From positions 38,944 to 102,943 of the forward strand of contig CACZKE010000016.1 in the NCBI GenBank assembly GCA_902781705.1: 64,000 nt of DNA. Reading direction: 5' to 3'. A program made the translations under genes and the position numbers. This DNA comes from an uncultured Bacteroidia bacterium (lineage in GTDB: Bacteria > Bacteroidota > Bacteroidia > Bacteroidales > UBA932). Position 1 is the first letter of the stretch. Each line of letters starts with the position of its first letter. The notes under the pieces are model-generated. The model made no database searches. It was not told the origin of the DNA and saw only the letters and a list, made by a program, of their open reading frames with translations. Positions 1,268 to 51,120 of this stretch are shown piece by piece.

Positions 1268-2245
1268 TTAATGTACTATTAGAATATCAGCGCAGATGGA
1301 TTCCGCTTCGGGAAGGGTGGCGAACTTGCCCACATCGACCATGGTGAAATCCGGCGGGACGACGCCGTAGATGGGGTACTCGGCGCAGGCCTTCAGATAG
1401 AAGTCCACGATGGAGAAGCGGTCGCCCATCCCGAGCCGTTCGAAGGCGTCGAAGATCTCCGGTGAAATCAGGTGGATGCCGGAGAAGGCCAGTTTACGGC
1501 ACTTTTCCGGGTCGATGTCCGGGTACGGGCTGCGGACTTCTCCCGTCGCGAGGTTGGTCCATCCTCTTAGCCGATTGTCTTCGTCGAACAGGAAATACCG
1601 CTGCGTCTTCCGCTCGCTCACCACCAGCGTGGCCAAGGAACCGGGGCGGTGCTGTTCCCGGAACCACCTGAGATCCAGGTTACTGACAATGTCCACATTA
1701 TGGACCAGGAACGGTTCCTTCCGGAAGATTTCTCCACTCGCTCCGCTCGGTCGAAATGACAAAGGGGTTCCGCTCGGACGACATGACAAAGGCTCGCCGT
1801 CCGGTCGAAATAACAAAGGGCCCCCGTCCGGCCGACATGACGGGCCTTCTGTCATTCCGAGCGAAGCGAAGGAATCTGTTTCTGTCCTTCCGAGCGAAAC
1901 CGAAGAACCTTCTTCTGTCATTTCGAGCGGAACCGAAGGCGGAGTCGAGAAATCTGTAAGCAACGGATGCGCATACCGGATCCCGCCGCCCGTCTCCCGA
2001 AGGAAGTCGCGTTCGTCGGAAACGTCGATCCGGACGCCGAAATCATGGGCCTTCAGGTAGTCGATGATCTGATCCGGGAAATGATGGACATTGACGACAA
2101 GGTGGTCATACCCTGCCTTGACAAGCTTGGTAATGACATGGTACAGCAGCGGCTGCCCGCAGACCGGCACGAGCGCCTTGGGCATCGTGTCCGTCAAAGG
2201 TTTCAGGCGGGTCCCCAGCCCCGCGGCAAAGATCATCGCTTTCAT
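1268..2245 (-). CDS. Nucleotidyltransferase, MurU-like (N-acetylmuramate-1-phosphate uridylyltransferase candidate)
   Basis: NTP-transferase fold enzyme of 325 residues. It starts with the nucleotide-binding signature MKAMIFAAGLGTRLKPLTD followed by PKALVPV, and has ETGGGI near residue 86 and FLVHNVDI near residue 179. MurU transfers UMP to MurNAc-1-phosphate in the cell-wall recycling bypass. The assignment rests on fold plus the neighbouring AmgK-like kinase 103 bp upstream on the same strand. A sugar-1-phosphate guanylyl- or thymidylyltransferase cannot be excluded. Residues ~98-174 are not family sequence: they are translated from an inserted palindromic repeat lying in the loop between GGGIRYAHPLL and the NVDI strand. 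The frame stays open, so the enzyme may be functional. Confidence 0.8.
   Translation of the reverse strand: MKAMIFAAGLGTRLKPLTDTMPKALVPVCGQPLLYHVITKLVKAGYDHLVVNVHHFPDQIIDYLKAHDFGVRIDVSDERDFLRETGGGIRYAHPLLTDFSTPPSVPLEMTEEGSSVSLGRTETDSFASLGMTEGPSCRPDGGPLLFRPDGEPLSCRPSGTPLSFRPSGASGEIFRKEPFLVHNVDIVSNLDLRWFREQHRPGSLATLVVSERKTQRYFLFDEDNRLRGWTNLATGEVRSPYPDIDPEKCRKLAFSGIHLISPEIFDAFERLGMGDRFSIVDFYLKACAEYPIYGVVPPDFTMVDVGKFATLPEAESICADILIVH
1726..1955. repeat. Palindromic repeat element inside the MurU-like gene
   Basis: A 230-bp element bounded by perfect terminal inverted repeats AGATTTCTC (1726-1734) and GAGAAATCT (1947-1955). Inside are repeated GTCGAAATGACAAAGG-type and GTCATTCCGAGCGAAGC-type half-units. 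Read in the host frame it gives a DFSTPPSVPLEMTEEG-type start and several PLSFRPSG-type units. Confidence 0.9.
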
Positions 2246-2348
2246 CGTCTGACAGCCGTCGAATGGAACTTGTTTATTATCAATGTCTTATATAATGTTG
2301 AGTACTCCGCTTGCCGCACTCAATTATCATCAAGTCAATCACATTCAA

Positions 2349-3995
2349 TCACTTACATTCAACGCATTCTTCGGGCAACCAGCGTTCAATGCCCCGCTCG
2401 CGGTGAATCAAGTGCACTCGGACGGGATACTTCGCAACCAGGTGCTCAGCGAGGTGCTGGGCGCTGTAGGCGGAGCGGTGCTGACCGCCGGTGCAGCCGA
2501 AGCTGACCTGCAGGTGGGTGAAGCCGCGCTCGAGGAAGCGTTCCACATGGGCATCGACCAAGGAATAGACATGGTCCAGGAAGCGGAGGATCTCGCCGTC
2601 CTGCTCCAGGAACTCGATGACCGGCGCATCCAGGCCGGTGAGCTGCTTGAACCGTTCGTACTTCCCGGGATTATGCACGCTCCGGCAGTCAAACACATAC
2701 CCGCCCCCGTTCCCGGACGCATCCTCGGGAATTCCCTTCTTGAAGGAGAAACTGTACACGGTTACCGTCAGGGATGAGATTTCTCCACTCGCTTCGCTCG
2801 GTCGAAATGACAAAGGGGCGCCGTTCGGTTGACATGACAACGGGTCTTCATGTCGAAATGACAATGGGGTTTTGCTCGGTCGAAATGACAAAGGGGCGTC
2901 GTCCGGTTGACATGACAACGGGTCTTCATCCGGTCGCAGTGTCGATCCTTCTGTCATTCCGAGCGATGCCGAAGAACCTTCTTCTGTCATTTCGAGCGGA
3001 GCCGAAGGCGGAGTCGAGAAATCTTCCCCACAAAGCCCCGCCAGAACTTCGGTCAAATACGGGTAGTCCTTGAAAGGCAGGAGGTTACGGACAATATCGA
3101 GCGCCGGGGGGATGCTGTCGATGAAGGCCTGCTTCTTTTCCCAGAGGCCGCGGTAGCCGTAGCAGCCGAGGACCTGGAGCATCCGGAAGAGGATGAAGAG
3201 GCGGAGGCGTTCCCGGAAGTGGGTTTCATCGACGGGTCCATAGGCACGGAGGGCCTCCAGATACACCTGCAGCAGTTCTTCCCGGAGCGCTTCCGGATAG
3301 CGGGCCCGGGCCTGCCAGAGGAAGGAAGCCACATCGTAGTAGATAGGTCCCCGGCGGCCGCCCTGGAAGTCGATGAACCATGGCTCCCCGTCCACCAGCA
3401 TCACGTTCCGGGCATTGAAGTCCCGGTACAGGAAGGTGTCGGAGGGTTCCGCCAGAAGGTCCGCCTTGAGGCGGTCGAAATCGTCCTGGAGCCGGACCTC
3501 GTTGAACTCCAACCCGGTGAGTTTCAGGTAGTCGTACTTGAAGTAGTTCAGGTCGAAGTCCACCATCCGCCCGTCGAACGAGGGCTGCGGATAGCACACC
3601 GAAAAGTCCAGACCCTGCGCACCCTCGACCTGGATCTTCGGGAGGGCCGCCATCGTCTTGCGCAGGAGCGCCACCTCGTCCGGGCTGTAGGCGCCCCGGG
3701 AGCGCCCATCGGCCAGGGCATCATAGAGGATCGCAGATCCCAAGTCTTCCTGAAGGTAACACAGGCCATCCTCGGCCAGGACCCTGGGCACCCGAATCCC
3801 CTTGGAGGCGAAGTGACGGTCGATGGTCAGGAAGGCGCGGTTCTCATCTGCATCGGTCCCTTCCACGCCGATGAGGGTGCGTCCGTCGGCCCCGGTAAGC
3901 CGGTAATACCGCCGGTGCGATGCCGATCCGGTCAGCGGCACCACGGACACCGGCGCCGCCCCGGTATATTGCTTGAACAGTGATTCCAGTGACAT
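2349..3995 (-). CDS. Amino-sugar kinase (AmgK/APH family) fused to RapZ C-terminal domain
   Basis: Two-domain protein of 548 residues. Residues 1-~322 are an aminoglycoside-phosphotransferase-type kinase: catalytic loop YRDFNARN at 190-197, metal-binding IDF at 208-210. This matches the AmgK family, which phosphorylates MurNAc/GlcNAc at C1. Residues ~415-548 are a RapZ C-terminal domain (GGYVFDCRSVHNPG at 431-444, GCTGGQHRS at 500-508). In Escherichia coli RapZ that domain senses glucosamine-6-phosphate. The linker (~324-408) is encoded by an inserted palindromic repeat. ATG 3995 is chosen because a TATTTTTG promoter box ends 6 bases upstream. The frame stays open to 5219 but crosses non-coding repeats. 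It lies upstream of the MurU-like gene, probably as an operon for peptidoglycan sugar salvage. Confidence 0.85.
   Translation of the reverse strand: MSLESLFKQYTGAAPVSVVPLTGSASHRRYYRLTGADGRTLIGVEGTDADENRAFLTIDRHFASKGIRVPRVLAEDGLCYLQEDLGSAILYDALADGRSRGAYSPDEVALLRKTMAALPKIQVEGAQGLDFSVCYPQPSFDGRMVDFDLNYFKYDYLKLTGLEFNEVRLQDDFDRLKADLLAEPSDTFLYRDFNARNVMLVDGEPWFIDFQGGRRGPIYYDVASFLWQARARYPEALREELLQVYLEALRAYGPVDETHFRERLRLFILFRMLQVLGCYGYRGLWEKKQAFIDSIPPALDIVRNLLPFKDYPYLTEVLAGLCGEDFSTPPSAPLEMTEEGSSASLGMTEGSTLRPDEDPLSCQPDDAPLSFRPSKTPLSFRHEDPLSCQPNGAPLSFRPSEASGEISSLTVTVYSFSFKKGIPEDASGNGGGYVFDCRSVHNPGKYERFKQLTGLDAPVIEFLEQDGEILRFLDHVYSLVDAHVERFLERGFTHLQVSFGCTGGQHRSAYSAQHLAEHLVAKYPVRVHLIHRERGIERWLPEECVECK
2777..3024. 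repeat. Palindromic repeat element inside the AmgK-RapZ gene
   Basis: A 248-bp element bounded by AGATTTCTC (2777-2785) and GAGAAATCT (3016-3024). It belongs to the same family, orientation and reading frame as the element in the MurU-like gene, and occupies the interdomain linker. Confidence 0.9.
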
Positions 3996-4001
3996 AACAT
4001 A

Positions 4002-4009
4002 CAAAAATA
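4002..4009 (-). promoter_or_regulatory. -7 promoter box for the AmgK-RapZ gene
   Basis: The minus strand reads TATTTTTG, matching the Bacteroidota TAnnTTTG box. Only six bases separate it from the ATG at 3995, so transcription should begin at or just before the start codon. Confidence 0.6.
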
Positions 4010-4093
4010 CGTAATCCTGCCGGAAACGCAAAACCGAAGCCTGACTTCCCTGCATGTCCCGATAGAATCCGAAACGATAGCCTGCCTTTCCCT

Positions 4094-4475
4094 GTACAAA
4101 TCTCGTTTGTACATCGGGAACGTTCCCCATGGGCATTATTCGTGTACAAATCTTTCCGGGAACAGGGGAATATGAGGGGATTGGACGAGATTTGAACAGG
4201 GAAACGGCCATGGAAGCCCATTCTGTCGTACAAACGAGATTTGTACAGCGAGGGCGGCATACAGCGGGAACGGCATCAGCGGGGCGGCATACAGCGGGAA
4301 CGTTCCCACGGGCATTATTCGTGTACAAATCTTTCCGGGAACAGGGGAATATGAGGGGATTGGACGAGATTTGAACAGGGAAACGGCCATGGAAGCCCAT
4401 TCTGCTGTACAAACGAGATTTGTACAGCGGGGCGACATACAGCGGGAACGGCATACAGCGAGGGCGGCATACAGC
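4094..4475. repeat. Duplicated ~179-bp repeat block with GTACAAA dyads
   Basis: This gene-free stretch holds two near-identical units of about 179 bp (GGGCATTATTCG at 4131 and again at 4310). A dyad GTACAAA-CGAGA-TTTGTAC occurs at 4228-4246 and 4407-4425, and in opposite orientation at 4094-4112. Short units containing GGCATACAGCGGGAAC recur between 4256 and 4475. No coding signal is convincing. It separates the divergent AmgK-RapZ and phytase-like genes. Confidence 0.85.
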
Positions 4476-4522
4476 GGGGAGCGGCACCGTCAGGCAGCGG
4501 AAAGAGGGAAAGGTTTTTTTCG

Positions 4523-4530
4523 TATCTTTG
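4523..4530 (+). promoter_or_regulatory. -7 promoter box for the phytase-like gene
   Basis: TATCTTTG matches the Bacteroidota TAnnTTTG consensus and lies 20 bases before the ATG at 4551. Confidence 0.6.
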
Positions 4531-12130: not shown

Positions 12131-12194
12131 CGATTAAAACCATCGTCCCGCTCCGTTATTCTTAAAGCCCTGAAACACAGGAGTATCCTTAAAC

Positions 12195-12219
12195 CGCTTT
12201 GCGCGTTTTGACGCAAAGC
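12195..12219. repeat. REP palindrome, copy 1 (upstream of RAYT)
   Basis: Hairpin with arms GCTTTGCG (12196-12203) and CGCAAAGC (12212-12219), preceded by AAACC. It has the same orientation as the copy at 15145-15170 and is inverted relative to the copy at 13385-13408. Confidence 0.8.
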
Positions 12220-12389
12220 ACTTTCATTATCTTGCTGATTGACAATTATATAAGAAAAACGTCCGTCGAACCATCGCCGTATTGTGAAGGAAAGGGATAT
12301 CGCGAATGACTTGCAATTGTTCCGGACAATGTCGATATTTACGACGGGATTCCCTGCCGGAGTCCGTTTCACATATCGAGGAGTCAGCT

Positions 12390-13325
12390 ATGAAGAGCCG
12401 GAGAAGAAGGTTCGCGCCTGAAGGCACTGAACACATTTACAAAATCACAAAAGACGGAGGGTTGCTGTTTTACACGCTCAGCGACTATCTTGTGTATTTC
12501 ACGATCACCTGCGTGGTCGCGGAGCGGATGGACATAACCCTGGCAGCCTTGACCCTGATGAGGGATCATGTCCATGAGGAACTGGAAGTCAAACTGTCAA
12601 AGGTCATGTCCGGCTATGAGCAGACGGTAAATGCGTGGTACGCCCAGGAATTCAACCGCTCCTGCAGGCGTAAGGGACAGCTGTTCCGGCATCGGTTCGG
12701 AAGTGCGCCGAAGCGCAAGGAAAGCCGGATCAGGGACTCCTTTGCCTATCTGGGAAACAATCCCGTGGAACGGAAACTCTGCCAGCGGGCGATTGAATAC
12801 CGATGGAATTTCCTGGCCTATGCACGCAGTTCCCATCCTTTCTCCAAACCGCTGGTCATTCGCGATGCATCGGCCCCGCTCGTGAGGGCCGTCAAGGAAG
12901 TCCTGTCTCTGCATAAGCAGCGGAATATATTGAATTATAGGATATTGGAAAGGATGTTCCGCTCACTGGACAAGGATGAGATCCAGCAGCTTACCGACTT
13001 TATCATATCGACTTACAATGTCATTGACTACGAGGCGGCCGCCTCCTGGTACGGATCCTTTGACAAAATGCTCGCAGCTTTCGATGTGAACACCGGTTCC
13101 GAATACGACATACGGGAAACCTTCGTGGGAAAGGATGACAAAGTATATGGGACACTCTCCAGCGCCATACTCCGCCAATGGAAACTCCGAAGCATCAAGG
13201 ATGTCATTACCTGGACCGACGAAAAGAAACTTAAAGCATTGGATCTCCTTGCCCGGGAAACCGGCGTTCCTTACGGGCAGATTGCCAAGTTTCTCCACAT
13301 CATAGTAAAAAAGGAGCGCAGATAA
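12390..13325 (+). CDS. REP-associated tyrosine transposase (RAYT, Y1/HUH family)
   Basis: A 311-residue Y1-type HUH transposase-like protein. The metal-binding motif HVH is at residues 60-62 (LMRDHVHEE) and the characteristic NNPVERKL ... EYRWNF segment lies at ~120-145. RAYTs cleave and mobilise short REP palindromes rather than their own gene. This one is flanked by two REP hairpins in inverted orientation, the classical arrangement. ATG 12390 is preferred because GAGGAG lies just upstream; the frame is open 28 codons further. The C-terminal ~150 residues are an extension with a helix-turn-helix-like end (GVPYGQIAKFLHI). Confidence 0.85.
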   Translation: MKSRRRRFAPEGTEHIYKITKDGGLLFYTLSDYLVYFTITCVVAERMDITLAALTLMRDHVHEELEVKLSKVMSGYEQTVNAWYAQEFNRSCRRKGQLFRHRFGSAPKRKESRIRDSFAYLGNNPVERKLCQRAIEYRWNFLAYARSSHPFSKPLVIRDASAPLVRAVKEVLSLHKQRNILNYRILERMFRSLDKDEIQQLTDFIISTYNVIDYEAAASWYGSFDKMLAAFDVNTGSEYDIRETFVGKDDKVYGTLSSAILRQWKLRSIKDVITWTDEKKLKALDLLARETGVPYGQIAKFLHIIVKKERR

Positions 13326-13384
13326 CTCTACGTAATCAGAAGTGTTTTTCTTAAACATCTGATTATTGTTGTGTTATAGAAACT

Positions 13385-13408
13385 GCTTTGCGTTTGAATG
13401 CGCAAAGC
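13385..13408. repeat. REP palindrome, copy 2 (downstream of RAYT, inverted)
   Basis: Arms GCTTTGCG (13385-13392) and CGCAAAGC (13401-13408). Its reverse complement carries the ACCGCTTTGCGC side of copies 1 and 3, so it faces copy 1 across the RAYT gene. Confidence 0.8.
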
Positions 13409-13494
13409 GGTATTAACAACTCGCTCACCATCAAAAAGATGAGAAAAACGGTGTCATTTCGAGCAGCCTCAATAGCACACTCACTATTTTTTCG

Positions 13495-15052: not shown

Positions 15053-15144
15053 GTCCTGATCGACATACCCCTGTATGCCATCCGCCGTTTCCGCTGCGGG
15101 TGGCGTTTTCTTTATATCGTTGTCCATCAGCCACTTAATCAAAC

Positions 15145-15170
15145 CGCTTTGCGCATTTTTACGCAAAGCG
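15145..15170. repeat. REP palindrome, copy 3 (between pncB and pncA)
   Basis: Perfect 9-bp arms CGCTTTGCG (15145-15153) and CGCAAAGCG (15162-15170) preceded by AAAC, in the same orientation as copy 1. It is a third member of the family tied to the RAYT gene. Confidence 0.8.
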
Positions 15171-15246
15171 ATTTCAGAAATCCAATCAGAATCAATAAGA
15201 TAAAGAAAACACCACGGAGAATGCAACGATTCTCACGGAAAAATCG

Positions 15247-15889: not shown

Positions 15890-18070
15890 ATGACCGATAT
15901 TTTCGAAGGACTGAACAGCCGCCAAAGGGAGGCCGTGACCACGACGGAGGGTAGGATCCGCGTCGTGGCGGGGGCCGGTACGGGGAAGACGAAGGCGCTG
16001 ACGCACCGGTATGCGTACCTGGTGAACGTCGTGGGCATCGACCCGGCCAATATCCTGTGCCTGACCTTTACCAACAAGGCGGCCTCGGAGATGCGGCAGC
16101 GCATCGCGGGGATGGTGCACAGCGGGGACTACAACGACTTCGTTTGCACGATCCACGGATTCTGCGTCAAGTTCCTCCGGAAAGAGATCTACCGCATCGG
16201 CTTCCCCAAGGGATTCACCGTCCTGGACGAGGAAGACTGCAAGGCCATCGCGAAGCAGGCGATGGACGAGATGGGCCTCAAGCGGACCGAGAAGACCGTC
16301 AAGCAGTTCCTGGAGGCGGTTTCCATCGACAAGGCCCTGAACGGGTACATCCCCGCCTACATGCTACCGGGGGCGAAGATCACGGACGAGATGCGGAAAT
16401 CCTCCCGGCTCGCGGGCTACGTGAGCCGGCAGATGAAGCACTACGCCCTGGACTTCGACGACCTGATGAACGTCACCAAGTACATCCTGGACCGCTTTCC
16501 GGAGGCCTGCGAATGGTGGCAGAACAACCTGAACTACATCATGGTCGATGAGGCTCAGGACTGTAACCTCGATGACTGGGACCTCGTGGAACGGCTGGCG
16601 GCCAGGCACCGGAACCTTTTCATCGTGGGCGACCCGGACCAGGCCATCTACGAATGGCGAGGTGCCCGGCCGGACCTTTTCGTGCAGTTCGCGGCCGACA
16701 AGACCGTCATCCTGGACGAGAACTACCGGTCCACCCCGAAGATCCTGGACATCGCCAACTGCGTGATTTCCAATAACAAGAACCGCATCCCCAAGGACCT
16801 TTTCACCCGGAAGGCGGAGGGCCGCGCAGTCATCCATTTCCACGGGAAATCCGAGAAGGAGGAGACGGACTGGATCATCGCACAGATCAAACTTCTGGTC
16901 GGGGGCGGCGCGAAAGTCAACGACATCGCCATCCTGTACCGCAGCACTTACCAGTCCCGCGCCCTGGAGCAGGCCCTCCTGAACGCCCGGATCGAGTACA
17001 CCGTCTGGGGCGGCACCCGCTTCTTCGAGCGCCGGGAAATCAAGGACGCCCTGTCCTACCTCCGGCTCGTGAACAACCAGGACGACGACATCGCCTTCGA
17101 AAGGATCGTCAACGTCCCCTCCCGGAAACTCGGCAAGAAGTTCCTGGACACGCTCCGGGACGATGCCGCCGCGGACGGCGTGTCCCTTTTCAGCGCCCTC
17201 CAGATCCGGGACGGCTACGGTAAACCGTCGGCGCAGGCCTTCATCGACCTCATCGAGGATGCCAAGGCCTATGCGCTGGAAAACCGCGTGAGCGACCTCC
17301 TGAACCGCATTCTGGACCGTTCCGGCCTCAAGCAGGCCATCCGCGAGGACCAGGACGAGGACCGGCTGGAGAACCTGGACGAACTCCTCTCCTCCATCAA
17401 GTTCTACGAATCCGTCCGCACCCCGGACGAATCCACGCTGGCGGATTACCTGCAGGACATCGCCCTTTATACCAACGACGACCACCGCAAGGACGTCCCC
17501 ACCCTTAAGATGATGACCATCCACCAGGCGAAGGGCCTGGAGTTCCCGTACGTGTTCATCACCGGCCTTTCCGAAGGCATCTTCCCGAACCTCCGCACCA
17601 TCCGCGAATACAAGAAGAACGGCGAGGAAGAGGAGCGGCGGCTCATGTACGTCGCCGTCACCCGCGCCGAGAAGGCGCTGTTCCTCACCGAGTCCGAAGG
17701 GTTCAACATCTCCACGAAAATGAACAAGTACCCGTCCCGCTTCCTCGCGGAGATCAAGCGGGAAATGGTTGTGGTCGAGGGCGTTATCCCCGAAGAACTC
17801 TGGCGCGGTACCCGGAATCTCATCCATGTCCTGGACGAGGAGTTCGACCCGCACCGGCCCATCGACATCGACAGCATCGACTTCACCTCCGAACGGGCGG
17901 AACTCCAGAGCCCCTTCCACATCAGCGACACCGTCACCCACCCCGTCTTCGGCGAAGGCGTCATCCGCGCCGCGAACAAGGACTGGACCACCTTCGAGGT
18001 GGAGTTTGCCGATGGGAGGGTGCGCAGCCTCCGGGCGGCGTTCATCAGGCTTGCGGACCTTCCGGAATGA
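15890..18070 (+). CDS. UvrD/PcrA-type ATP-dependent DNA helicase
   Basis: Superfamily 1A 3'-5' DNA helicase of 726 residues. Walker A is AGAGTGKTKA near residue 27; the N-terminal Q-motif region reads LNSRQREAV. Other motifs: LTFTNKAASEM (Ia), VDEAQDCN (II), GDPDQAIYEWRGA (III), LDENYRS (IV), TIHQAKGLEFPYVF (V) and YVAVTRAEKALFL (VI). The C-terminal segment (HPVFGEGVIRAANKDWTTFEVEFADG) is the Tudor-like domain found in PcrA/UvrD, which contacts RNA polymerase. Likely roles are repair and removal of transcription or replication blocks. A short GATTCCCGG...CCGGGAAT hairpin lies just before the start. Confidence 0.92.
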   Translation: MTDIFEGLNSRQREAVTTTEGRIRVVAGAGTGKTKALTHRYAYLVNVVGIDPANILCLTFTNKAASEMRQRIAGMVHSGDYNDFVCTIHGFCVKFLRKEIYRIGFPKGFTVLDEEDCKAIAKQAMDEMGLKRTEKTVKQFLEAVSIDKALNGYIPAYMLPGAKITDEMRKSSRLAGYVSRQMKHYALDFDDLMNVTKYILDRFPEACEWWQNNLNYIMVDEAQDCNLDDWDLVERLAARHRNLFIVGDPDQAIYEWRGARPDLFVQFAADKTVILDENYRSTPKILDIANCVISNNKNRIPKDLFTRKAEGRAVIHFHGKSEKEETDWIIAQIKLLVGGGAKVNDIAILYRSTYQSRALEQALLNARIEYTVWGGTRFFERREIKDALSYLRLVNNQDDDIAFERIVNVPSRKLGKKFLDTLRDDAAADGVSLFSALQIRDGYGKPSAQAFIDLIEDAKAYALENRVSDLLNRILDRSGLKQAIREDQDEDRLENLDELLSSIKFYESVRTPDESTLADYLQDIALYTNDDHRKDVPTLKMMTIHQAKGLEFPYVFITGLSEGIFPNLRTIREYKKNGEEEERRLMYVAVTRAEKALFLTESEGFNISTKMNKYPSRFLAEIKREMVVVEGVIPEELWRGTRNLIHVLDEEFDPHRPIDIDSIDFTSERAELQSPFHISDTVTHPVFGEGVIRAANKDWTTFEVEFADGRVRSLRAAFIRLADLPE

Positions 18071-18071: not shown

Positions 18072-18154
18072 AGATTTCTCGACTCCGCCCTCCGGGCTCC
18101 GCTCGAAATGACGGTATTTGTCATTTCGACCAAGCGAAGCGCGTGGAGAAATCT
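18072..18154. repeat. Intergenic palindromic repeat element
   Basis: Minimal 83-bp member of the dispersed family: AGATTTCTC (18072-18080) to GAGAAATCT (18146-18154), with CGAAATGAC and GTCATTTCG arms meeting in the centre. It could fold as one long hairpin between the helicase and exbB genes. Confidence 0.9.
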
Positions 18155-29596: not shown

Positions 29597-29648
29597 CTGT
29601 CATTCTGAGTGTGACCTTACTGTCATTCTGAGCGAAGCGAAAGAATCT
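29597..29648. repeat. Palindromic-repeat half-units before the dCMP deaminase gene
   Basis: Two CTGTCATTCTGAG half-units (29597-29609 and 29620-29648), the second running through GCGAAGCGAAAGAATCT to within one base of the ATG at 29650. The dispersed repeat thus supplies the whole translation-initiation region of the next gene. Confidence 0.85.
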
Positions 29649-29649
29649 C

Positions 29650-33604: not shown

Positions 33605-35773
33605 ATGAGTACGACGAAGAAAAAGGGACAGTCCGAGATCAAGGACAAGATCGAGAACCGCGACCGCATCCACATCGTGATGACGGCCCTGACGATGCTG
33701 TTCATCATCCTGTCCGTGGGGATCATCGCCTGCATCGTACACATCCAGGCCACGTTCCGGGTGGACCCGAGAGTCGTGAACATCTTCCGGCCCCGTCCCG
33801 ACAAATACATCGAAGAGCCCAAGCGGGGCCGCATCCTCGCCGAGGACGGCCGCCCGCTCGCCATCACGACGCCCCTGTACAACATCTACATGGACTGCAC
33901 CGTCCGCAAGGACGAATTCCTGGAGATGGACCGCAAGGAAGCCCGCCGCATCCAGCGCATCAAGGAAAAGGGCGAAGAGGCCCCCGCTCCCCAGTACAAG
34001 GGTGCGAAGGCCGAGCAGCAGTGGCAGGAGAAGGCGCGGGAACTTTCCGCCGGACTGGCCCGCCTGTTCCCGAACAAGTCCGCCGAGCAGTATTTCAAGG
34101 AGATCCTCGCCGGCCGGGAAGGGGGCAAGAAGCACATGCTCATCCGCCGGAACGTAAGCCACGCCACGCTGAACCAACTCAAGGAACTCCCGCTCTTCAA
34201 CGAAGGCGGCTACAAGGGCGGACTCATCGCCGAGCAGCATGACGAACGCCTCTACCCGTACGACACCCTTGCCCGGCGCGTCATCGGCTATGTCCGCGAG
34301 CAGGGCCGCATCGGCATCGAAGGCACCTACGACTACGAACTCCATGGCCAGGAAGGCGTCCAGTGGCGCCGCGTCACCGACGACCGCAAGTATATCCGCG
34401 ACTTCGACAGTACCGCCGTCAAGGCCGTGGACGGGAACGACGTGCGGACCACCCTGAACATCGACTTCCAGGACATCGCCGACCGGGCCCTCCGCCGCCA
34501 GATCGCCGACGACCCGCAGATCCGGGCCGGCATCGTGGTCCTGATGGAGGCGAAGACCGGAGCCATCCGCGCGATGGTGAACCTGTCCCGGGACACCATC
34601 CCCGGCTCCAAACTCTGGGAACGGGACAACCTCGTCCTCAAGGAAGTGGGCGAACAGGGCTCGGTCATGAAGACCGTCACCCTCCTCTCCCTGGTGGAAG
34701 ACGGCCACGTGAAATCGCTGGAGGAGACCATCCCCACGAACCACGGTGTTGTTCCCGGTTACAACCAGGATGTCCATATCCTTGACTACGAACGCATTAG
34801 CGGACGCAGCGAAATTACGGTCAAGCACGGTTTCGAGATTTCCTCGAACTACGTGTTCACCTATCTCCCGGAGAAGTTCTACGGAGAGAACCCGCAGGAA
34901 TTCTTCGACCATATCTACGCCTACCGCCTCGGGGAGAAGTTCGACTTCGACCTGGACGGCCTCGGAACGCCGGTGGTGAACCGGCCTGGCACCCCGGGCT
35001 GGAGCCGCACCACCCTGGGCACGACGGCCTACGGCTACGGCATGTCCGTAACGCCCCTCCACGTCGCCACCTTCTACAACGCCATCGCGAACAAGGGCCG
35101 GATGATGAAGCCCTACCTCGTGGAGAGCATCGAGAAGGACGGGAAGGTGGTCCGCCAGTACGGACCGTCGGTGTTGAACAACATCTGCACCCGGGCCACC
35201 GCCGACACCGTCACCCGCGCCCTCAAGGCCGTGGTCGACGACGGTACGGCCAAACGCCTCAAGGACGCGAAACTCTCCGTCGCCGGCAAGACGGGCACGG
35301 CCCAGGTCGTCCTTACCCCGAAGGAGCGCAAAGGCAGCACCGACCCGTATCACGATCCTTCGGGCCGCAAGAAGAACCAGGGCACCTTCGTCGGGTTCTT
35401 CCCGGCCGACGACCCCAAGTACACCATCCTCGTGACCGTGTACTCCTACCTCTCCGGCATGAGTTTCTACGGCGGCACCAAGCCGGCGATGGCCGTGCGC
35501 GAGATCGTGGACAACATCTACGCCATCGACGACTCCTGGTCCGGCCATGTCACGAGCACCGGTACCCTCCCCCAGATGGTGCAGGAACAGGCCGATACCG
35601 ACGGCACCACCGTCCCCGACCTCAAGGGTTTCGTCCTGGCCGACGCCCTGTATGCCGTGGAGAATGCGGGCTGGAAATGCGCCTATGAGGGTTCCGGCCA
35701 TGTGACGGCCCAATCCCCCGCCCCGGGGAAGGCCCTGAAGAAAGGGGAAACCATCCGACTTACTTTGAAATGA
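33605..35773 (+). CDS. ftsI: Septal peptidoglycan transpeptidase (FtsI/PBP3-like) with PASTA domain
   Basis: A 722-residue class B penicillin-binding protein with an N-terminal membrane helix (~22-45). The transpeptidase domain carries the three active-site motifs SVMK (GEQGSVMKTVT), SSN (FEISSNYVF) and KTG (VAGKTGTAQ). A single PASTA domain closes the protein (~665-722: TTVPDLKGFVLADALYAVENAGW). It cross-links septal peptidoglycan with FtsW. GTG at 33602 is one codon upstream in frame; ATG 33605 is chosen because it follows the ftsL stop directly. It overlaps murE by 4 bases. Confidence 0.93.
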   Translation: MSTTKKKGQSEIKDKIENRDRIHIVMTALTMLFIILSVGIIACIVHIQATFRVDPRVVNIFRPRPDKYIEEPKRGRILAEDGRPLAITTPLYNIYMDCTVRKDEFLEMDRKEARRIQRIKEKGEEAPAPQYKGAKAEQQWQEKARELSAGLARLFPNKSAEQYFKEILAGREGGKKHMLIRRNVSHATLNQLKELPLFNEGGYKGGLIAEQHDERLYPYDTLARRVIGYVREQGRIGIEGTYDYELHGQEGVQWRRVTDDRKYIRDFDSTAVKAVDGNDVRTTLNIDFQDIADRALRRQIADDPQIRAGIVVLMEAKTGAIRAMVNLSRDTIPGSKLWERDNLVLKEVGEQGSVMKTVTLLSLVEDGHVKSLEETIPTNHGVVPGYNQDVHILDYERISGRSEITVKHGFEISSNYVFTYLPEKFYGENPQEFFDHIYAYRLGEKFDFDLDGLGTPVVNRPGTPGWSRTTLGTTAYGYGMSVTPLHVATFYNAIANKGRMMKPYLVESIEKDGKVVRQYGPSVLNNICTRATADTVTRALKAVVDDGTAKRLKDAKLSVAGKTGTAQVVLTPKERKGSTDPYHDPSGRKKNQGTFVGFFPADDPKYTILVTVYSYLSGMSFYGGTKPAMAVREIVDNIYAIDDSWSGHVTSTGTLPQMVQEQADTDGTTVPDLKGFVLADALYAVENAGWKCAYEGSGHVTAQSPAPGKALKKGETIRLTLK

Positions 35774-37317
35774 AACTGAAAGACATCATACGGAATATCG
35801 ACCCGGTCGAGGTCCTCGGATCCCTGGACACGGAGATCACCGCCATCACCTGCGACTCCCGCGAGGTGACGCCCGGCTCCCTCTTCATCGCCGTGAAGGG
35901 CTTCGCCTCCGACGGGCATAAATACATTCCTTCAGCCCTGGAAAAGGGTGCGGTGGCGGTGATCTGCGAAGACGGAGATTTCTCCACGCGGCCTTCGGCC
36001 TTGGTCGAAATGACAGAGGTTAAGGAGACAGCCTCAGTCGAGATGACAGGTCCTGTCATTTCGAGCGAAGCGAAGCGGAGTCGAGAAATCTCCTGGGTGA
36101 AGGTGCAGAACAGCCGGCACGCGGTGGCGATGGCGGCGGATGCGTTCTACGGGCATCCGTCCGGGAAACTGTCGCTGGTGGGGATCACCGGGACGAACGG
36201 GAAGACGACGACCGTCACCCTGCTGTACCGCCTGTTCAAGGCCATGGGGCATCCGTCGGGCCTGCTGTCCACCATCGCCAACTATGTGGACGACAAGCGG
36301 TTGGAGACTGCCAACACGACCGCCGACCCCATCACCATCAACCGTCTCCTCGCGGAGATGGTCGATGCCGGATGCAGTTACTGCTTCATGGAAGTGAGTT
36401 CGATCGGCGTGGAGCAGGAACGCGTGGCCGGCCTGCAGTTCGCCGCCGGCATCTTTTCCAACCTTACTCACGACCACCTGGACTACCACAAGACCTTCGC
36501 CGAGTATCTCCGCTGCAAGAAACTGTTCTTCGACAACCTTCCGAAGGAGGCATACGCCATCATCAACGTGGATGACAAGAACGGCCCCGTCATGGTCCAG
36601 AACACCGCCGCGAAGGTGGTCACCTACGCCTGCAAGCGCCTGGCGGACCACACTGCCCGGATCCTCGAGCAGAGTTTCGAGGGCATGCTCCTGAAGATCG
36701 ACGGGAAAGAGACCTGGACCCGCCTCGTGGGCGCGCACAACGCCTATAACCTCCTTGCCATCTACACGACGGCCGTCTGCCTCGGCGCTCCGGTCGATGA
36801 GGTGCTCGTCGCCCTGTCGAACCTCGCTTCCGCCCCCGGACGGCTGGAGAACATCCGCGGTCCGAGGGACCTCGCCGTCATCATCGACTATGCCCATACC
36901 CCCGACGCCCTGGAGAACGTCCTCACGACCCTGCGCGACGTCGCTCCGGAGCGGCAGTTGATCTGCCTGTTCGGCTGCGGCGGCGACCGCGACAAGACCA
37001 AGCGCCCCGAGATGGCGCAGGTGGCCGCCCGCCTCGCCGACCGGCTCGTCGTCACCTCCGACAACTGCCGGACCGAGGATCCCGAGGCCATCATCCGCGA
37101 CATCCGCGCCGGCCTGGACTGGGACGGCGTCGCCAAGTCCCTGTTCATCACGGACCGCCGCGAGGCCATCCGGACCGCCATCCTGACGGCCCCGGAAGGC
37201 GCCACGATCCTCCTCGCCGGCAAGGGCCACGAGGACTACCAGATTATCGGCCACGAGAAACTGCATTTTGACGAAAAAGAGATTGTACTGGAAACCTTCA
37301 AACTGATCCTGAAATGA
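35770..37317 (+). CDS. murE: UDP-MurNAc-tripeptide synthetase MurE with repeat insertion
   Basis: A 515-residue Mur ligase that adds the third amino acid to UDP-MurNAc-L-Ala-D-Glu. ATP-binding GITGTNGKTTT is near residue 138; NTTADP and LTHDHLDYH follow. Residues ~69-107 (DFSTRPSALVEMTE ... SREI) come from an inserted palindromic repeat and interrupt the N-terminal domain just before WVKVQNSRHAVA. The amino-acid selectivity motif, DNPR in diaminopimelate-adding MurE, reads DNCR at residues 431-434, so meso-diaminopimelate is likely but one position deviates. The rest is conserved and the gene lies mid-operon, so it must be functional. Confidence 0.92.
   Translation: MKLKDIIRNIDPVEVLGSLDTEITAITCDSREVTPGSLFIAVKGFASDGHKYIPSALEKGAVAVICEDGDFSTRPSALVEMTEVKETASVEMTGPVISSEAKRSREISWVKVQNSRHAVAMAADAFYGHPSGKLSLVGITGTNGKTTTVTLLYRLFKAMGHPSGLLSTIANYVDDKRLETANTTADPITINRLLAEMVDAGCSYCFMEVSSIGVEQERVAGLQFAAGIFSNLTHDHLDYHKTFAEYLRCKKLFFDNLPKEAYAIINVDDKNGPVMVQNTAAKVVTYACKRLADHTARILEQSFEGMLLKIDGKETWTRLVGAHNAYNLLAIYTTAVCLGAPVDEVLVALSNLASAPGRLENIRGPRDLAVIIDYAHTPDALENVLTTLRDVAPERQLICLFGCGGDRDKTKRPEMAQVAARLADRLVVTSDNCRTEDPEAIIRDIRAGLDWDGVAKSLFITDRREAIRTAILTAPEGATILLAGKGHEDYQIIGHEKLHFDEKEIVLETFKLILK
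35976..36091. repeat. Palindromic repeat element inside murE
   Basis: A 116-bp element from AGATTTCTC (35976-35984) to GAGAAATCT (36083-36091), in frame with murE. The translated start DFSTRPSALVEMTE parallels the DFSTPPS...EMTE peptides in the MurU-like and AmgK-RapZ genes. Confidence 0.9.
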
Positions 37318-39978: not shown

Positions 39979-41376
39979 ATGGGAAAGGAAAAGAAAAAAC
40001 GGTTTAACATTTGGAACTGGATGGAAGGGTTCCGGGGGGACAAGGTCATTCTGATCGTGGCCCTGCTGCTGATGCTCACTTCCGTCATTTCCGTGTTCTC
40101 CTCCACGCCGCTGCTGGCCCTGGAGCGGGGCATCGACCGGATCAGCATCATGACCTCGCAACTGAAGGTCGTGCTCGTCGGGGTGGTCGTGATCCTGCTC
40201 CTGTATATCTTCGGGAAGAGCAAGGCCTACCGGATGGTGGGGAAATACGGCTTCTTCCTGTCCCTTGCGATGCTCGTCATCCTGGTGGGCAACCTGCACC
40301 TCGGGATCATCGAGGCGGGCGAGATCAACGGCGCCCGGCGCATCATCAAGGTCTTCGGGAAACAACTCCATGTCTATGAGTTCGTGAAGGTGTTCATGGT
40401 CCTGTATCTTGCCTGGGCGCTGGACGCGTACAAGCGCGGGGAATTCCGCCTGACCCGGTGGATCGCGGGACGGTATCCCAAGATCGCGGGCATCGACACG
40501 CCCATGGGCCAGAAGGTCTTCTATATCTATTTGCCTACCCTCATCACGGTCGTCCTCGTCATGACGGGATCCAATTCTTCGGCCCTGTTCATCGGTCTGG
40601 TACTCCTGCTGATCATCCTCATCGGCGGTGTGCGGTTCATGGACCTCGTGGCTTTCGGCCTCGTGGGTCTGGTGGGGATCGGTATCGTATTCGGAGCGCA
40701 CAAGGCGGGCCTGCTGAAGAACAACCGCATCGACACAGCCATCAGCCGCATCACCAATGATGACGAAGCGACGATGGACATCCTCCTTTCCTCCCGGCCC
40801 GGATCGCCCGAGTACGAGGCGGCGCGGGACGAACTCAAGCAGCCCATCGGAGCCCAACTGGCCATCCAGGAAGGCGGACTCTTCGGCAAGGGCATCGGCA
40901 ACAGCACCCAGAAATACACGGTTCCGGTCATCTTCGGAGACTACATGTTCAGTTTCCTCGTCGAGGAGACGGGCATCATCGGGGCCATCCTCATCATCCT
41001 CCTGTATTTCAGTCTCCTGGCGCGCGGAACGACCGTGGCGAAGGACTGCGACGACTACTTTGACAAGATCACGGTGGCGGGCCTCACCATCCTCATCACC
41101 GGCCAGGCCTTCATGCACATGATGGTGAACGTCCATTTCCCGCTGATTCCCCAGACCGGACAGACCCTGCCCCTGGTGAGCCATGGAACGACCTCCTTCC
41201 TGGTGTTCAGCGCCGTCTTCGGCATACTCCTGTCCATCAGCCGGGAGACCTGGCTCAAGATGCGGCAGCGGGAGGACAACGCCATTTCCATCATCGAACA
41301 CGAACCCGACGAAATCGAATCCCGGCTGGGCGACCTGGACGTCCTCGAGACCCGGGAGCAAAACGAAGAGATATGA
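39979..41376 (+). CDS. ftsW: Septal glycosyltransferase FtsW
   Basis: A 465-residue SEDS-family polytopic protein that polymerises glycan strands at the septum with FtsI. The family signature is visible late in the protein (GEETGIIGAILIILLY-type region and PQTGQTLPLVSHGTTSFL), with about ten hydrophobic helices. The C-terminal ~45 residues are a charged cytoplasmic tail. It overlaps murG by 4 bases. Confidence 0.93.
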   Translation: MGKEKKKRFNIWNWMEGFRGDKVILIVALLLMLTSVISVFSSTPLLALERGIDRISIMTSQLKVVLVGVVVILLLYIFGKSKAYRMVGKYGFFLSLAMLVILVGNLHLGIIEAGEINGARRIIKVFGKQLHVYEFVKVFMVLYLAWALDAYKRGEFRLTRWIAGRYPKIAGIDTPMGQKVFYIYLPTLITVVLVMTGSNSSALFIGLVLLLIILIGGVRFMDLVAFGLVGLVGIGIVFGAHKAGLLKNNRIDTAISRITNDDEATMDILLSSRPGSPEYEAARDELKQPIGAQLAIQEGGLFGKGIGNSTQKYTVPVIFGDYMFSFLVEETGIIGAILIILLYFSLLARGTTVAKDCDDYFDKITVAGLTILITGQAFMHMMVNVHFPLIPQTGQTLPLVSHGTTSFLVFSAVFGILLSISRETWLKMRQREDNAISIIEHEPDEIESRLGDLDVLETREQNEEI

Positions 41377-42503
41377 ATTACAGACCGATACGCGCCATCA
41401 TCAGCGGAGGCGGCACGGGAGGGCACATCTTCCCGGCCATCTCCATCGCGAACAAACTGAAAGAACTCAATCCGGAAACGGAGATCCTCTTCGTCGGCGC
41501 CACCGGCAAGATGGAGATGGAGAAGGTCCCTGCTGCGGGGTACAGGATCATCGGCCTCCCCATCGTGGGGATGCAGCGGCAACTGAACCTGAAGAACGTC
41601 GTGAACGACCTCCAGGTGCCTTTCCGGGTCCTGAGGAGCATCTCCCTGGCCCGGAAGATCATCCGTGATTTCAAGCCGGATATCGCCATCGGCGTGGGCG
41701 GTTATGCCAGCGCTCCCCTGCTCTATGCGGCCACCCGGATGAAAGTGCCCACGCTCATCCAGGAACAGAACGGTTTCGCCGGCCTCACGAACAAGATGCT
41801 GGGAAAGAACGTAGGCAGCATCTGCGTCGCCTACGAGGGGATGGAGAAGTTCTTCCCTGCCGACAAGATCGTCCTGAGCGGCAATCCCATCCGGAAGGAG
41901 GTCTCCACGCCCCCGACTCCGGAAATGAAGGCCGAGGCCATGACCTACTACGGACTGGACCCGGAGAAGAAGCATATCTTCATCGTGGGCGGAAGCCTCG
42001 GAAGCGGCACGCTGAACCGGTCCATGAAACGCTGGATCGAGGCGGGCTGCCCCGGCGGCGAAGGCATCGAAATCATCTGGCAGTGCGGACGTTACTACAA
42101 GCAGGGCGTGGATGATTTCATGGCGACGCACCCGGTGAAGGGCATCCGGCACTACGATTTCATCGCCCGGATGGACCTCGCCTATGCGGCGGCGGACATC
42201 GTCATCTCCCGCAGCGGCGCCAGCACAGTCTCCGAACTCTGCGCCATGGAAAAGGCGGCCATCTTCGTTCCTTCCCCGAATGTCGCGGAGGACCACCAGA
42301 CGCACAACGCGATGGCCCTCGTCCGAAAGGACGCCGCCCTGATCGTGAAGGATGCCGATGCACCCGAAAAACTGATGGCCACGGCCACGGCCCTGGTCCA
42401 CGACAGCGAGAAGGTCGCCGCCCTCGGGCGGAATGCCGGGAAGATGGCGCTGCGAGATGCGGCGCAGGTGATTGCCGACGAGGCGTATAAGATTCTTCGC
42501 TAA
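41373..42503 (+). CDS. murG: UDP-GlcNAc transferase MurG
   Basis: A 376-residue GT28 glycosyltransferase that converts lipid I to lipid II on the inner membrane face. The N-terminal glycine-rich SGGGTGGHIFPAISIA, then GVGGYASAP and LIQEQNGFAGLTNK, and C-terminal SRSGASTVSELCAMEKAAIFVPSP match the family. A palindromic-repeat half-unit (42491-42516) covers its stop codon and last codons. Confidence 0.95.
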   Translation: MNYRPIRAIISGGGTGGHIFPAISIANKLKELNPETEILFVGATGKMEMEKVPAAGYRIIGLPIVGMQRQLNLKNVVNDLQVPFRVLRSISLARKIIRDFKPDIAIGVGGYASAPLLYAATRMKVPTLIQEQNGFAGLTNKMLGKNVGSICVAYEGMEKFFPADKIVLSGNPIRKEVSTPPTPEMKAEAMTYYGLDPEKKHIFIVGGSLGSGTLNRSMKRWIEAGCPGGEGIEIIWQCGRYYKQGVDDFMATHPVKGIRHYDFIARMDLAYAAADIVISRSGASTVSELCAMEKAAIFVPSPNVAEDHQTHNAMALVRKDAALIVKDADAPEKLMATATALVHDSEKVAALGRNAGKMALRDAAQVIADEAYKILR

Positions 42504-42516
42504 CGCTCAGAATGAC
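42491..42516. repeat. Palindromic-repeat half-unit over the murG stop codon
   Basis: The sequence from GATTCTTCGCTAACG to CAGAATGAC is the same half-unit as before the dCMP deaminase gene. It provides the final codons and stop (42501-42503) of murG. Confidence 0.7.
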
Positions 42517-42530
42517 AGAATGACAAAAGT

Positions 42531-49400: not shown

Positions 49401-49433
49401 CATTCAAACAGCCTTCATCCTTCGATTACTGTG

Positions 49434-49462
49434 CGTCCCGGTCCATCGATTGGACCGGGACG
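49434..49462. terminator. Convergent hairpin between gltX and truB
   Basis: Perfect 12-bp arms CGTCCCGGTCCA (49434-49445) and TGGACCGGGACG (49451-49462). A further TTGGACCGGGAC copy lies at 49501-49512 and could pair alternatively with the first arm. The position between convergent genes suits a bidirectional terminator. Confidence 0.65.
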
Positions 49463-49526
49463 TGCATTTTAGCCTGTTTTCGAAGGTCCCCTTCAAATAT
49501 TTGGACCGGGACCCGCACGTCGGAAG

Positions 49527-50603
49527 TCAATCCGCCAAAAGGGCGAGGGTCTCGTCCAGGGAGAGGGCGTTTTCAAGGGAGAAATCGCCTGTCCGGGTGC
49601 GGACGAGACTGGACAGGTGCGCGCCGGAGCCGAGCGCTTCGCCAAGGTCGCGGGCGAAGGCGCGGATGTATGTGCCTTTGGAGCAGGCGATGCGTACCGT
49701 CGCTGTGGGGAGGCCCATGCCTGATGTGTCAGTCATGTTGATCCGGGAAGAAGCAGATTTCTCGACTCCGCCTGCGGCTCCGCTCGAAATGACAGAATGG
49801 GCTCCGTCTGGAATGACAGGAAGCGAATCATTGGAAATGGCTGATGAAACCGTGCTCAAGGACGATGCCTGCAAGGCATCCGCATCCGGAGTCGGACAAC
49901 TTTTTTCCGACCTTTTTTCGGGAGGAAAAAAGTTAGTCCGCGGAGGTTCGGCGGATGCCGGATCAAAATCAAGCAACGCCAGATCGGAGATGGTAATGCG
50001 GCTGCGGTGGAGGGTTTCGAGGGCGGCGGCATCGAAGTCGGGGTCCAGATCGCCGCGCTGGGACTTGCGGTAGAGTTTGCGGGCGAGTTCGTAGGCGCGG
50101 ACGCCATCGACAGACTTGGCGCTGAAAAGGGGCGCGATCTGCTCCTGGGGGCCCAGGAAGTCCTTCAGGGCATCCCGAACACTTTCCTCCGTGATATGCT
50201 CATAGGGGAAGGTCCGGTCCACTTCCTTCTCCAGATCGTAAGACGGCGTGGTGGCGCCGAAGCGGATGCCGGCGACGTACTCCTTGTCATGATCCTGGAA
50301 TTCCTGCGCCCGTTTGCAGGCCGCACCGATGCACACGAGCAGCACGCCCGTCGCCAGGGGATCCAGCGTCCCGGCATGACCCACCTTCAGGTTCTTCTTC
50401 CGGAAGTGCCTGAAAGCGGCGAACTTGACCTTCCGGATGACATCGGCCGATGTCCACCTGTAGGGTTTGTCGATGGGGATGACGATGCCGGCGGGGTAAT
50501 CCGCGATGTCGTGGGACAGAGATCCTTCGCTGACGCTCAGGATGACAGGGGAACCGCTCAGGATGACAGGGGAATCGCCCGGAGGGACTGGGGCGTGGCT
50601 CAT
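49527..50603 (-). CDS. truB: tRNA pseudouridine(55) synthase TruB with repeat-derived segments
   Basis: A 358-residue pseudouridine synthase for U55 of tRNA. The catalytic aspartate is in VGHAGTLDPLATGVLLV (~76), and the C-terminal ACSKGTYIRAFARDLGEALG and AHLSSLVRTRTGDFSLENA match the family. Two stretches are repeat-derived: residues ~8-30 (SPVILSGSPVILSVSEGS) before the true fold begins at AGIVIPIDKP, and a central insert (~225-290) containing VISSGAAGGVEKSA just before the ACSKGTY strand. Its ATG overlaps the rpiB stop in ATGA. Confidence 0.9.
   Translation of the reverse strand: MSHAPVPPGDSPVILSGSPVILSVSEGSLSHDIADYPAGIVIPIDKPYRWTSADVIRKVKFAAFRHFRKKNLKVGHAGTLDPLATGVLLVCIGAACKRAQEFQDHDKEYVAGIRFGATTPSYDLEKEVDRTFPYEHITEESVRDALKDFLGPQEQIAPLFSAKSVDGVRAYELARKLYRKSQRGDLDPDFDAAALETLHRSRITISDLALLDFDPASAEPPRTNFFPPEKRSEKSCPTPDADALQASSLSTVSSAISNDSLPVIPDGAHSVISSGAAGGVEKSASSRINMTDTSGMGLPTATVRIACSKGTYIRAFARDLGEALGSGAHLSSLVRTRTGDFSLENALSLDETLALLAD
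49755..49800. repeat. Palindromic-repeat half-element inside truB
   Basis: AGATTTCTC at 49755-49763 continues through GACTCCG...GCTCGAAATGACAG, the family's left half. No intact right terminal repeat follows; the next ~60 bases look like degenerate repeat. The truB frame is kept. Confidence 0.8.
50513..50580. repeat. Palindromic-repeat units at the truB 5' end
   Basis: Units containing GATCCTTCGCTGACG and CTCAGGATGACAGGGGAA are repeated twice. On the coding strand they give SPVILSGSPVILSVSEGS. Confidence 0.75.
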
Positions 50604-51031
50604 CGGCAGGGTATCTTGTCGATGCGGCGCTGGTGGCGGCCGCCTTCGAAGGAGGTGTCCAGCCAGGTGCGGACGATGTTGGAGGCGATCCGGTACGGGA
50701 TGAAGCGGGCCGGGAGAACCAGGACGTTCGCGTTGTTATGGGCCTTCACGAGACGGCCCACCTCGGAGGACCAGGCGAGGCCGGCCCGGATGCCCTGGTG
50801 CTTGTTCAGGGTGATGGCCATGCCGTTGCCGGTACCGCAGAGGGCGATGCCCAACTCCACTTCCCCACTCTCGACCGCCTGCGCGAGCCGATGCGCGAAG
50901 TCCGGATAGTCACAACTCACTTCCGTGTCCGTGCCGTAATTGACGACCTCGATACCGCGCTCCCGCAGCATCTTCATCAGTTTGTTCTTGTACTCCACGC
51001 CGGCGTGGTCGTTGCAGATTCCGATTTTCAT
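50600..51031 (-). CDS. rpiB: Ribose-5-phosphate isomerase B (RpiB/LacAB family)
   Basis: A 143-residue sugar-phosphate isomerase interconverting ribose-5-phosphate and ribulose-5-phosphate. It shows MKIGICNDHAGVEYK at the start, the catalytic cysteine in GIALCGTGNGMAI, then GIRAGLAW and NNANVLVLPARF. ATG 51031 is chosen because the family begins there; the 25 codons further upstream are translated repeat sequence. It is coupled to truB by a 4-base overlap. Confidence 0.92.
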   Translation of the reverse strand: MKIGICNDHAGVEYKNKLMKMLRERGIEVVNYGTDTEVSCDYPDFAHRLAQAVESGEVELGIALCGTGNGMAITLNKHQGIRAGLAWSSEVGRLVKAHNNANVLVLPARFIPYRIASNIVRTWLDTSFEGGRHQRRIDKIPCR

Positions 51032-51038
51032 AGGTATT

Positions 51039-51120
51039 AGATTTCTCGACAAGCTCGAAATGACAAAAAATAATAAACTCGAAATGACAAAAAGGTCACC
51101 GTTCAAAATGACTGAAGGTC
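51039..51120. repeat. Palindromic-repeat units upstream of rpiB
   Basis: AGATTTCTC (51039-51047) followed by three CTCGAAATGACAAAAA-like or CAAAATGACTGAAGG-like units. It fills most of the space between the HprK-like and rpiB genes. Confidence 0.8.

Follow-up and report, generated by a model that had tools for sequence, protein, structure and literature searches.

Small palindromic elements reside in frame within conserved enzymes of an uncultured Bacteroidales bacterium

Introduction

How can a repeated palindrome come to lie inside a conserved enzyme while the reading frame stays open? The question is raised by a 64,000-nt stretch of DNA (hereafter, the window) from an uncultured Bacteroidia bacterium (Bacteroidales; UBA932), which covers positions 38944-102943 of contig CACZKE010000016.1 (C16) in a genome of 3.07 Mb (labelled G000). 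An initial annotation of the window described a palindromic repeat family inserted in frame in essential enzymes and compared it with the Rickettsia palindromic elements (RPEs). Rickettsia is the best-known bearer of protein-coding palindromes, and their presence there could be due to a reduced genome and weak selection. In this study, we have traced the family through the window, the genome and related genomes, and we are confident that it consists of small non-autonomous palindromic elements, which we name composite REPs (repetitive extragenic palindromes). The repeat family, its in-frame residence in conserved enzymes and its resemblance to RPEs are all upheld by our results, and the insertions are mostly younger than the split from the relatives sampled.

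Results

A full composite REP consists of an A unit and a B unit that face each other across a spacer, which varies and in which degenerate half-units may be present. Each unit starts with AGATTTCTC or a close variant and ends in TGACA, the A end being AGATTTCTCCAC and its close variants and the B end being of the AGATTTCTCGAC type; units with other stems are called cousin units here. In the window, the initial annotation had placed four full elements, bounded by AGATTTCTC...GAGAAATCT, and all four were located there. Three of them lie in frame in conserved genes. The first (1726..1955, minus strand, with its A end at 1726 and its B end at 1955) encodes about 78 amino acids of a MurU-like nucleotidyltransferase gene (1268..2245, minus strand; PF00483, PF12804), and inside it half-units repeat in tandem at a spacing of about 27 nt, with one cousin unit at 1847-1877. 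The second (2777..3024, minus strand) occupies the linker between the two domains of a gene that fuses AmgK (APH) to the C-terminal part of RapZ (2349..3995, minus strand, start set by the codon model; PF01636, PF22740), and it aligns to the MurU element with 194 identities, 27 mismatches and 36 gap positions. The third (35976..36091, plus strand) is in murE (35770..37317, plus strand; PF01225, PF08245, PF02875), within the match to the N-terminal Mur_ligase domain. The fourth (18072..18154, plus strand) proved to be intergenic, starting 1 nt past the stop codon at 18068-18070. The fourth conserved host is truB, which carries not a full element but a single B unit (49755..49797, minus strand), in frame in a length-variable region of the open reading frame (ORF; 49527..50603, minus strand; PF01509, PF16198). 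The nearly constant peptide DFSTxPS...EMTE, noticed early on in three of these genes, is read from the B end in MurU and AmgK-RapZ and from the A end in MurE, because the two ends share sequence.

These ends are far from confined to the four genes. The window has 10 occurrences of AGATTTCTC, with 0.52 expected (100 shuffles, of which none reaches 10), and the end pattern, allowing one mismatch, has 68 matches genome-wide against 0 for the reversed pattern. A profile built from 10 window units listed at least 133 units in the genome at E <= 0.1 (150 of 5583 candidates scored), a lower bound, as the unit at 51039, known from another scan, is absent from the list. Absence of the ends elsewhere in the genome, which the initial annotation had named as a ground for giving up the idea, is therefore not what we observe. 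Cousin units had 55 exact matches against 0 for their reversed form, some of them overlapping with the 133. After joining units at most 260 bp apart, the 133 units, for which 88 genome stretches were taken, formed 102 elements.

We next describe where these elements lie. Coding calls relied on a codon model trained on the window, and an element was counted as in-gene when each flank, taken over at most 100 codons, exceeded 8 bits and a single frame ran through the element without a stop. By this measure 40 of the 102 elements have coding-like sequence of one ORF to either side; the TruB element (L145) falls below the codon score and is counted in addition, by homology, only in the tally by size. 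That tally gives 16/27 for two-ended elements, 14/31 for long single units (TruB included), 8/15 for single cousin units and 2/27 for short forms of 28-30 nt; the two-ended set includes L086, which joins a B end to a cousin end, and omits a three-unit element at C7:12521. Short forms are thus outside genes in 25 of 27 cases, compared with 28 of 58 for long singles and composites together (Fisher p 7.5e-5, in a set without the single cousin units, 15 in number with 8 in genes, and without two other multi-unit elements).

A Pfam scan of 30 of the 39 distinct in-gene ORFs gave a match in 28; three window genes were scanned separately and the other six fell outside the scan. Pfam-backed hosts include IleS, MetG, CysS, MetH, MurB, an RsmE-type and a TrmH-type methylase, an EPSP synthase fusion, an M3 peptidase, an ABC exporter, an ABC-F protein, a PBP1C-like protein, two beta-galactosidases, GH43, GH20 and an MFS transporter (the names IleS, RsmE, PBP1C and ABC-F are presumptive, taken from domain make-up). 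The expectation that such inserts are tolerated in loops or linkers is supported at the level of sequence. Eleven inserts lie between two Pfam domains (AmgK-RapZ, TruB, IleS, MetG, MetH, CysS, GH43, ABC exporter, the GH2 protein of L123, ABC-F and PBP1C), the one in MetH being so counted despite a 3-residue overlap. Eleven others lie inside a single domain match (MurE, MurB, GH20b, MFS, DegT, M3, GH2_N of L128, RsmE, TrmH, MacB and OAD gamma, the last of which is a match below its Pfam cut-off). The 16 two-ended in-gene elements are read in frame +2 (nine), +1 (four), -1 (two) and -0 (one, L086, whose orientation is arbitrary), with the A-to-B sense in 13 of 16 (binomial p 0.021). As host genes use several frames and both orientations, no single peptide is conserved. 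One locus (L094, G000:C3:23038-34134) has four adjacent genes, each with an in-frame element: a NanM-like kelch protein, a GH20, an MFS transporter and a SASA esterase.

Do the elements also break genes? Coding sequence on the same strand flanks 51 elements on either side; of these, 40 keep an open frame, compared with a frame kept in 437 of 1176 simulated blind insertions, a margin that needs care since the criterion favours in-frame cases and two thresholds were used. The remaining 11, picked at more than 12 bits over 40-70 codons rather than at the threshold of the 40, were examined as possible broken genes and rejected as such: the positions of stop and start codons suggest junctions of adjacent genes, and none is a clear broken gene. 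The stop of the left ORF is formed by a T and the AG of the element in 7 and lies 25-72 nt from the element start in 4, and for each ORF on the right a start codon is present close to where the element stops (judged by codons, with homology unused). The numbers fit blind insertion followed by loss of the frame-breaking events.

The same use of stop codons is seen outside genes. The 62 elements that were not counted as in-gene are faced by 55 gene 3' ends (a range that opens about 150 nt ahead of the element and extends into it). For 14 of these 55, the TAG stop is made of a flanking T and the first two bases of the element, AG, and 8 more gene ends are within 2 nt of the element boundary. In the same way, the termini of GTAG REPs often provide a TAG stop, according to the sections of PMC3733652 drawn on here.

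Comparison with relatives indicates that most of the inserts examined are younger than the split from the relatives sampled. Twenty-five other genomes of the genus were searched for MurU; the 78-residue insert is absent from all 21 orthologues aligned, four genomes having weak or partial matches that were left unaligned. The AmgK-RapZ insert is absent from 13/13 aligned relatives, and no profile match occurs in the 14 stretches taken (L250-L263), of which 13 were aligned; the aligned ORF of L262 is without the downstream domain. For MurE, the insert is absent from the 20 named relatives aligned (20 of 80 loci), and the MurE genes of the 80 named loci (L001-L040 among them, a few partial) gave no profile match, the only matches at these loci being four in L067, outside MurE. 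The nearest named MurE relatives are Bacteroidales metagenome-assembled genomes, many titled from ruminant or horse gut samples. The IleS insert is absent from 22/22 aligned orthologues (22 of 25 genomes). Recurrence of the same segments in relatives, the other ground for doubt named at the outset, is seen at TruB only among the genes aligned: G003, the nearest relative sampled, has a shortened copy at the same site, and TruB of G006 has a separate complete element in the same variable region. In a GH43 linker, G000 and G005 carry elements in opposite orientation (376 identities in 554 aligned residues). At the level of sequence this suggests two insertions, but an inversion in place could also produce the arrangement.

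The distribution is patchy. At E <= 1e-4, the unit is found in 14 of 25 genomes of the genus, this one included, with 1 to 116 units each, and 11 are without a copy; in other families of the order it is found in 1 of 16 genomes at the same threshold. Across the phylum, a related unit is present in 41 of 395 sampled genomes, again including this one (E <= 1e-5, 16 candidates scored per genome). In-frame residence recurs in three other carriers of the genus, where 22 of 51 elements are in frame in coding-like ORFs (13/28 in G006, 5/12 in G005 and 4/11 in G004, from 20, 10 and 10 stretches chosen as the best-scoring places). In one G006 stretch (L324), an ORF that we take from its motif to be a PrmC-like methyltransferase has several units in one gene.

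In the anatomy of the family, an A end is paired with a B end in 26 of the 27 two-ended elements, the exception being L086, and the TGTC tag ends point inward in 27/27. Lengths range from 69 to 248 bp (n=27) and are 2 mod 3 in 19 of 27 (11/16 in genes, 8/11 outside). Elements keep 3.5 of 6 frames open, compared with 2.7 of 6 in their own shuffles. The tag is TGTC in nearly all listed units and CGTC in a few, and the unit tail after the stem reads CT. In the 14 window units, the 5-bp outer stem is paired in 70/70 cells, three of the five pairs are changed on both sides between subfamilies, and A and T are complementary at the first two stem positions in 14/14. Folded as single-stranded DNA, the two full elements tried each formed a single long hairpin (z -3.97 for the MurE copy, z -5.07 for the 18072 copy), while three single units folded no better than shuffles. 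No consistent matching flanks were seen by eye at the 27 two-ended elements. We had considered a miniature element with terminal inverted repeats, moved by a DDE transposase; the target site duplication that defines this class is not seen at these 27 elements, and the assignment was rejected. The only target preference in the flanks of two-ended elements is a mild lack of C at positions -2 and -3, and no Rfam family matched in the window.

The window also contains lesser members of the family. Six half-elements had been proposed; those at 49755 (in TruB) and 51039 are true AGATTTCTC units, the latter being a short-form unit (51039..51066, plus strand) that heads a degenerate array upstream of, and outside, an rpiB-like gene (50600-51031). 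Those at 29597, 42491 and 50513 turned out to be cousin units with other stems, and that at 13451 is a scrap of about 13 nt, unscored by the profile. One cousin unit with an ATTCT/AGAAT stem (29617..29649, minus strand) is intergenic, with a second partial copy at 29597. Another with the same stem (42489..42520, plus strand) includes the stop codon of the gene 41373-42503. A third, with an ATCCT/AGGAT stem (50516..50552, minus strand), is among the cousin units that span 50516-50570, where the TruB ORF is extended at its N terminus; this extension is a predicted reading frame of uncertain translation. The TruB ORF has another insert at about 49893-49940, where an unrelated palindrome, ACTTTTTTCCGACC..GGAAAAAAGTT, is in frame in the same variable region and is also present in G003. 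Elsewhere, between called genes, the stretch 4089-4432 contains a 128-bp direct repeat (97%) with TGTACAAATCTCGTTTGTACA palindromes.

Discussion

The reading that we favour, and hold to be likely, is that composite REPs are non-autonomous selfish elements that are tolerated in linkers and loops. A trans-acting activity would move copies by acting on the hairpin, most likely as single-stranded DNA, as for REPs, and insertion into genes would be roughly blind. Selection would then keep the copies between genes, those that land on a stop codon, which T+AG would restore, and those that keep an open frame in a linker or loop, where they would give a translated and tolerated peptide. From the sequences we infer the movement, a mobilising enzyme, the translation of the peptides and their neutrality. 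The element itself is probably selfish, and our data show no benefit of its in-gene copies.

Several of our results weigh against this reading. The sampled relatives offer no near-identical empty DNA site, the nearest of them being 79-91% identical in segments of the MurU protein. A purely blind element does not explain why nearly all of the 28-30-nt short forms lie outside genes. The in-gene test is passed by 70% of random positions matched within the same stretches, compared with 40 of 102 elements; the elements are therefore under-represented in genes, and genes are avoided overall. The in-gene count presupposes an open frame and a codon score, and 'in frame' is partly built into it. The covariation score of the stem in the 14 window units is above all 500 shuffles for a stem that was defined from those same 14 sequences, and one of five stem measures, which counts further pair types, fails to exceed the shuffles. 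No candidate for an autonomous copy, in the form of a neighbouring facing pair 500-3000 bp apart, was found by inspection among the at least 133 units listed. Finally, no convincing unit was found at 33 loci of REP-associated tyrosine transposases (RAYTs), the type to which our transposase survey was limited (of 53 matches in the genus, 32 were covered, with all 22 of the seven genomes richest in elements among them, and a further locus came from another family); the best unit matches there reached 12.7 and 11.2 bits (E 0.26 and 0.67).

This last result bears on who moves the elements. The initial annotation had suggested an outside transposase, a claim that our data do not show. A resident RAYT, or TnpAREP, could mobilise composites in trans, which would make them REPINs (paired, inverted REPs) of the known type. 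In favour of this, the genome has two Y1_Tnp (RAYT-like) genes, one of them in the window at 12306-13325, each composite has two inverted units as a REPIN does, and the portions of PMC6006769 cited here present TnpAREP as a proposed REP mobiliser, able to cleave and rejoin REPs. Both resident genes, however, are flanked by palindromes of their own that differ from the composite REP. The window gene is bracketed by GCTTTGCG..CGCAAAGC palindromes at 12191-12226 and 13380-13415 (a third copy is at 15141-15176), and the second gene (L169) by AGAGGTGCAC..GTGCACCTCT palindromes. With none of the 33 loci carrying a convincing unit, and with genomes of the genus that have RAYT matches but zero elements (e.g., G008, G009, G010, G015, G020), we regard this explanation as possible but doubtful. 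As separate observations, the window has four spaced intergenic copies of AGAGGTGCAC....GTGCACCTCT at 1036-1261, the same palindrome as at the RAYT gene L169, and in the genus several other RAYT genes are bracketed by perfect palindromes that differ from gene to gene.

A second alternative is that the element is adapted to coding DNA and not merely tolerated there, its length rule keeping the frame and its AG end providing a safe landing on stops. By our reading of the alignment, the net gain at MurU relative to G003 is 234 nt for a 230-nt element, as if each insertion brought an extra 1 mod 3; with a length that is mostly 2 mod 3, insertion would then tend to keep the frame. The higher number of open frames in elements than in their shuffles points the same way. 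If true, this would be a selfish element fitted to genes. The length rule could instead come from common descent of the copies, and we find adaptation rather improbable.

We also give a low probability to the proposal that selection maintains the units at gene ends as functional hairpins, which would stabilise mRNA or terminate it, with in-gene copies as spill-over by recombination or gene conversion. The 14 stops built with the element's AG, the 8 further gene ends at most 2 nt away among the 62 non-gene elements, and the bias of the short forms would all suit it. Against it, none of the three single units tried folds better than its shuffles, genes hold about 40% of the elements, and the copy number varies from 0 to 116 within one genus, unlike a conserved regulatory part. 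Removal from RNA by splicing, or bypass by the ribosome, seems very improbable: hairpin inserts in essential genes are typical of intron-like and bypass elements, but these would have no need of an open frame, and 16 two-ended in-gene elements are open in the frame of their gene (by the criterion used), no clear frame-breaking case is found among the 11 candidates, and the window is without an Rfam match. Ancient conserved loops, suggested only by the TruB copy common to G000 and its nearest sampled relative, are ruled out by the aligned MurU, AmgK-RapZ, MurE and IleS orthologues, and assembly artefacts, for DNA that is also intergenic and occurs in four separate assemblies, are next to impossible.

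Orthologue pairs with and without inserts (aminoacyl-tRNA synthetases, Mur enzymes, MetH) make the tolerance, timing and mechanism of insertion testable. The elements also carry a warning for annotation, since such peptides are probably mobile DNA and not domains.

How do these elements compare with known systems? The statement in the initial annotation that nothing of the kind was reported for Bacteroidota was too strong. As described in the cited part of PMC3733652, REPs with a CGTC tag occur in Bacteroidetes, and PMC6006769, in the part cited, describes frame-keeping REP insertions in tnpAREP genes; these genes belong to subclass 2.4, which Cyanobacteria and Bacteroidetes have in abundance. 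In the open-licence papers searched, we found no account of in-frame elements scattered over the conserved enzymes of Bacteroidota. The non-autonomous ERIC, Coxiella QMITE1 and Yersinia YPAL elements have intragenic copies or fusions (PMC10969869, PMC2229807, in the passages drawn on here); composite REPs differ from them by showing no target duplication and by the large share of copies in genes. REPIN/RAYT systems have two inverted units as well, but no RAYT gene that we examined is flanked by a composite-REP unit, and the GTAG foot is missing.

In structure, composite REPs resemble the CGTC REPs, a superfamily that includes RPE-4 and RPE-6. What is cited here of PMC3733652 gives them TGTC and CCTC tag variants, a stem of 8-9 bp, a loop of 4-5 nt, a CCA tail in most families, mostly head-to-head dimers and intragenic copies in some species, reports that no dedicated transposase was found, and mentions TruB genes with REPs, a host that recurs here. 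Composite REPs share the TGTC/CGTC tag, the AT first stem positions, the inward-facing dimers (many elements being single units) and the lack of a flanking RAYT at the 33 loci. They differ by a 5-bp stem, a longer interior in place of the 4-5-nt loop, a CT tail instead of CCA, and a fold formed by the composite and not by the single unit. Owing to the mismatch in stem, loop and tail, we place composite REPs outside CGTC-1 to CGTC-4.

In their way of working, composite REPs are like RPEs. The cited portions of PMC2229807, PMC3733652 and PMC10969869 describe RPEs as palindromes of about 105-146 bp with terminal inverted repeats, whose target duplication is unknown and which lie in frame in conserved genes, including TruB. 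Compared by description, our elements differ in lineage and lifestyle of the host, in the asymmetry of the A and B ends, and in having a short form at stop codons. What the two have in common is in-frame residence in many conserved protein genes, TruB among them, and here the same habit is found in a 3 Mb genome, in a genus where 11 of 25 sampled species are copy-free.

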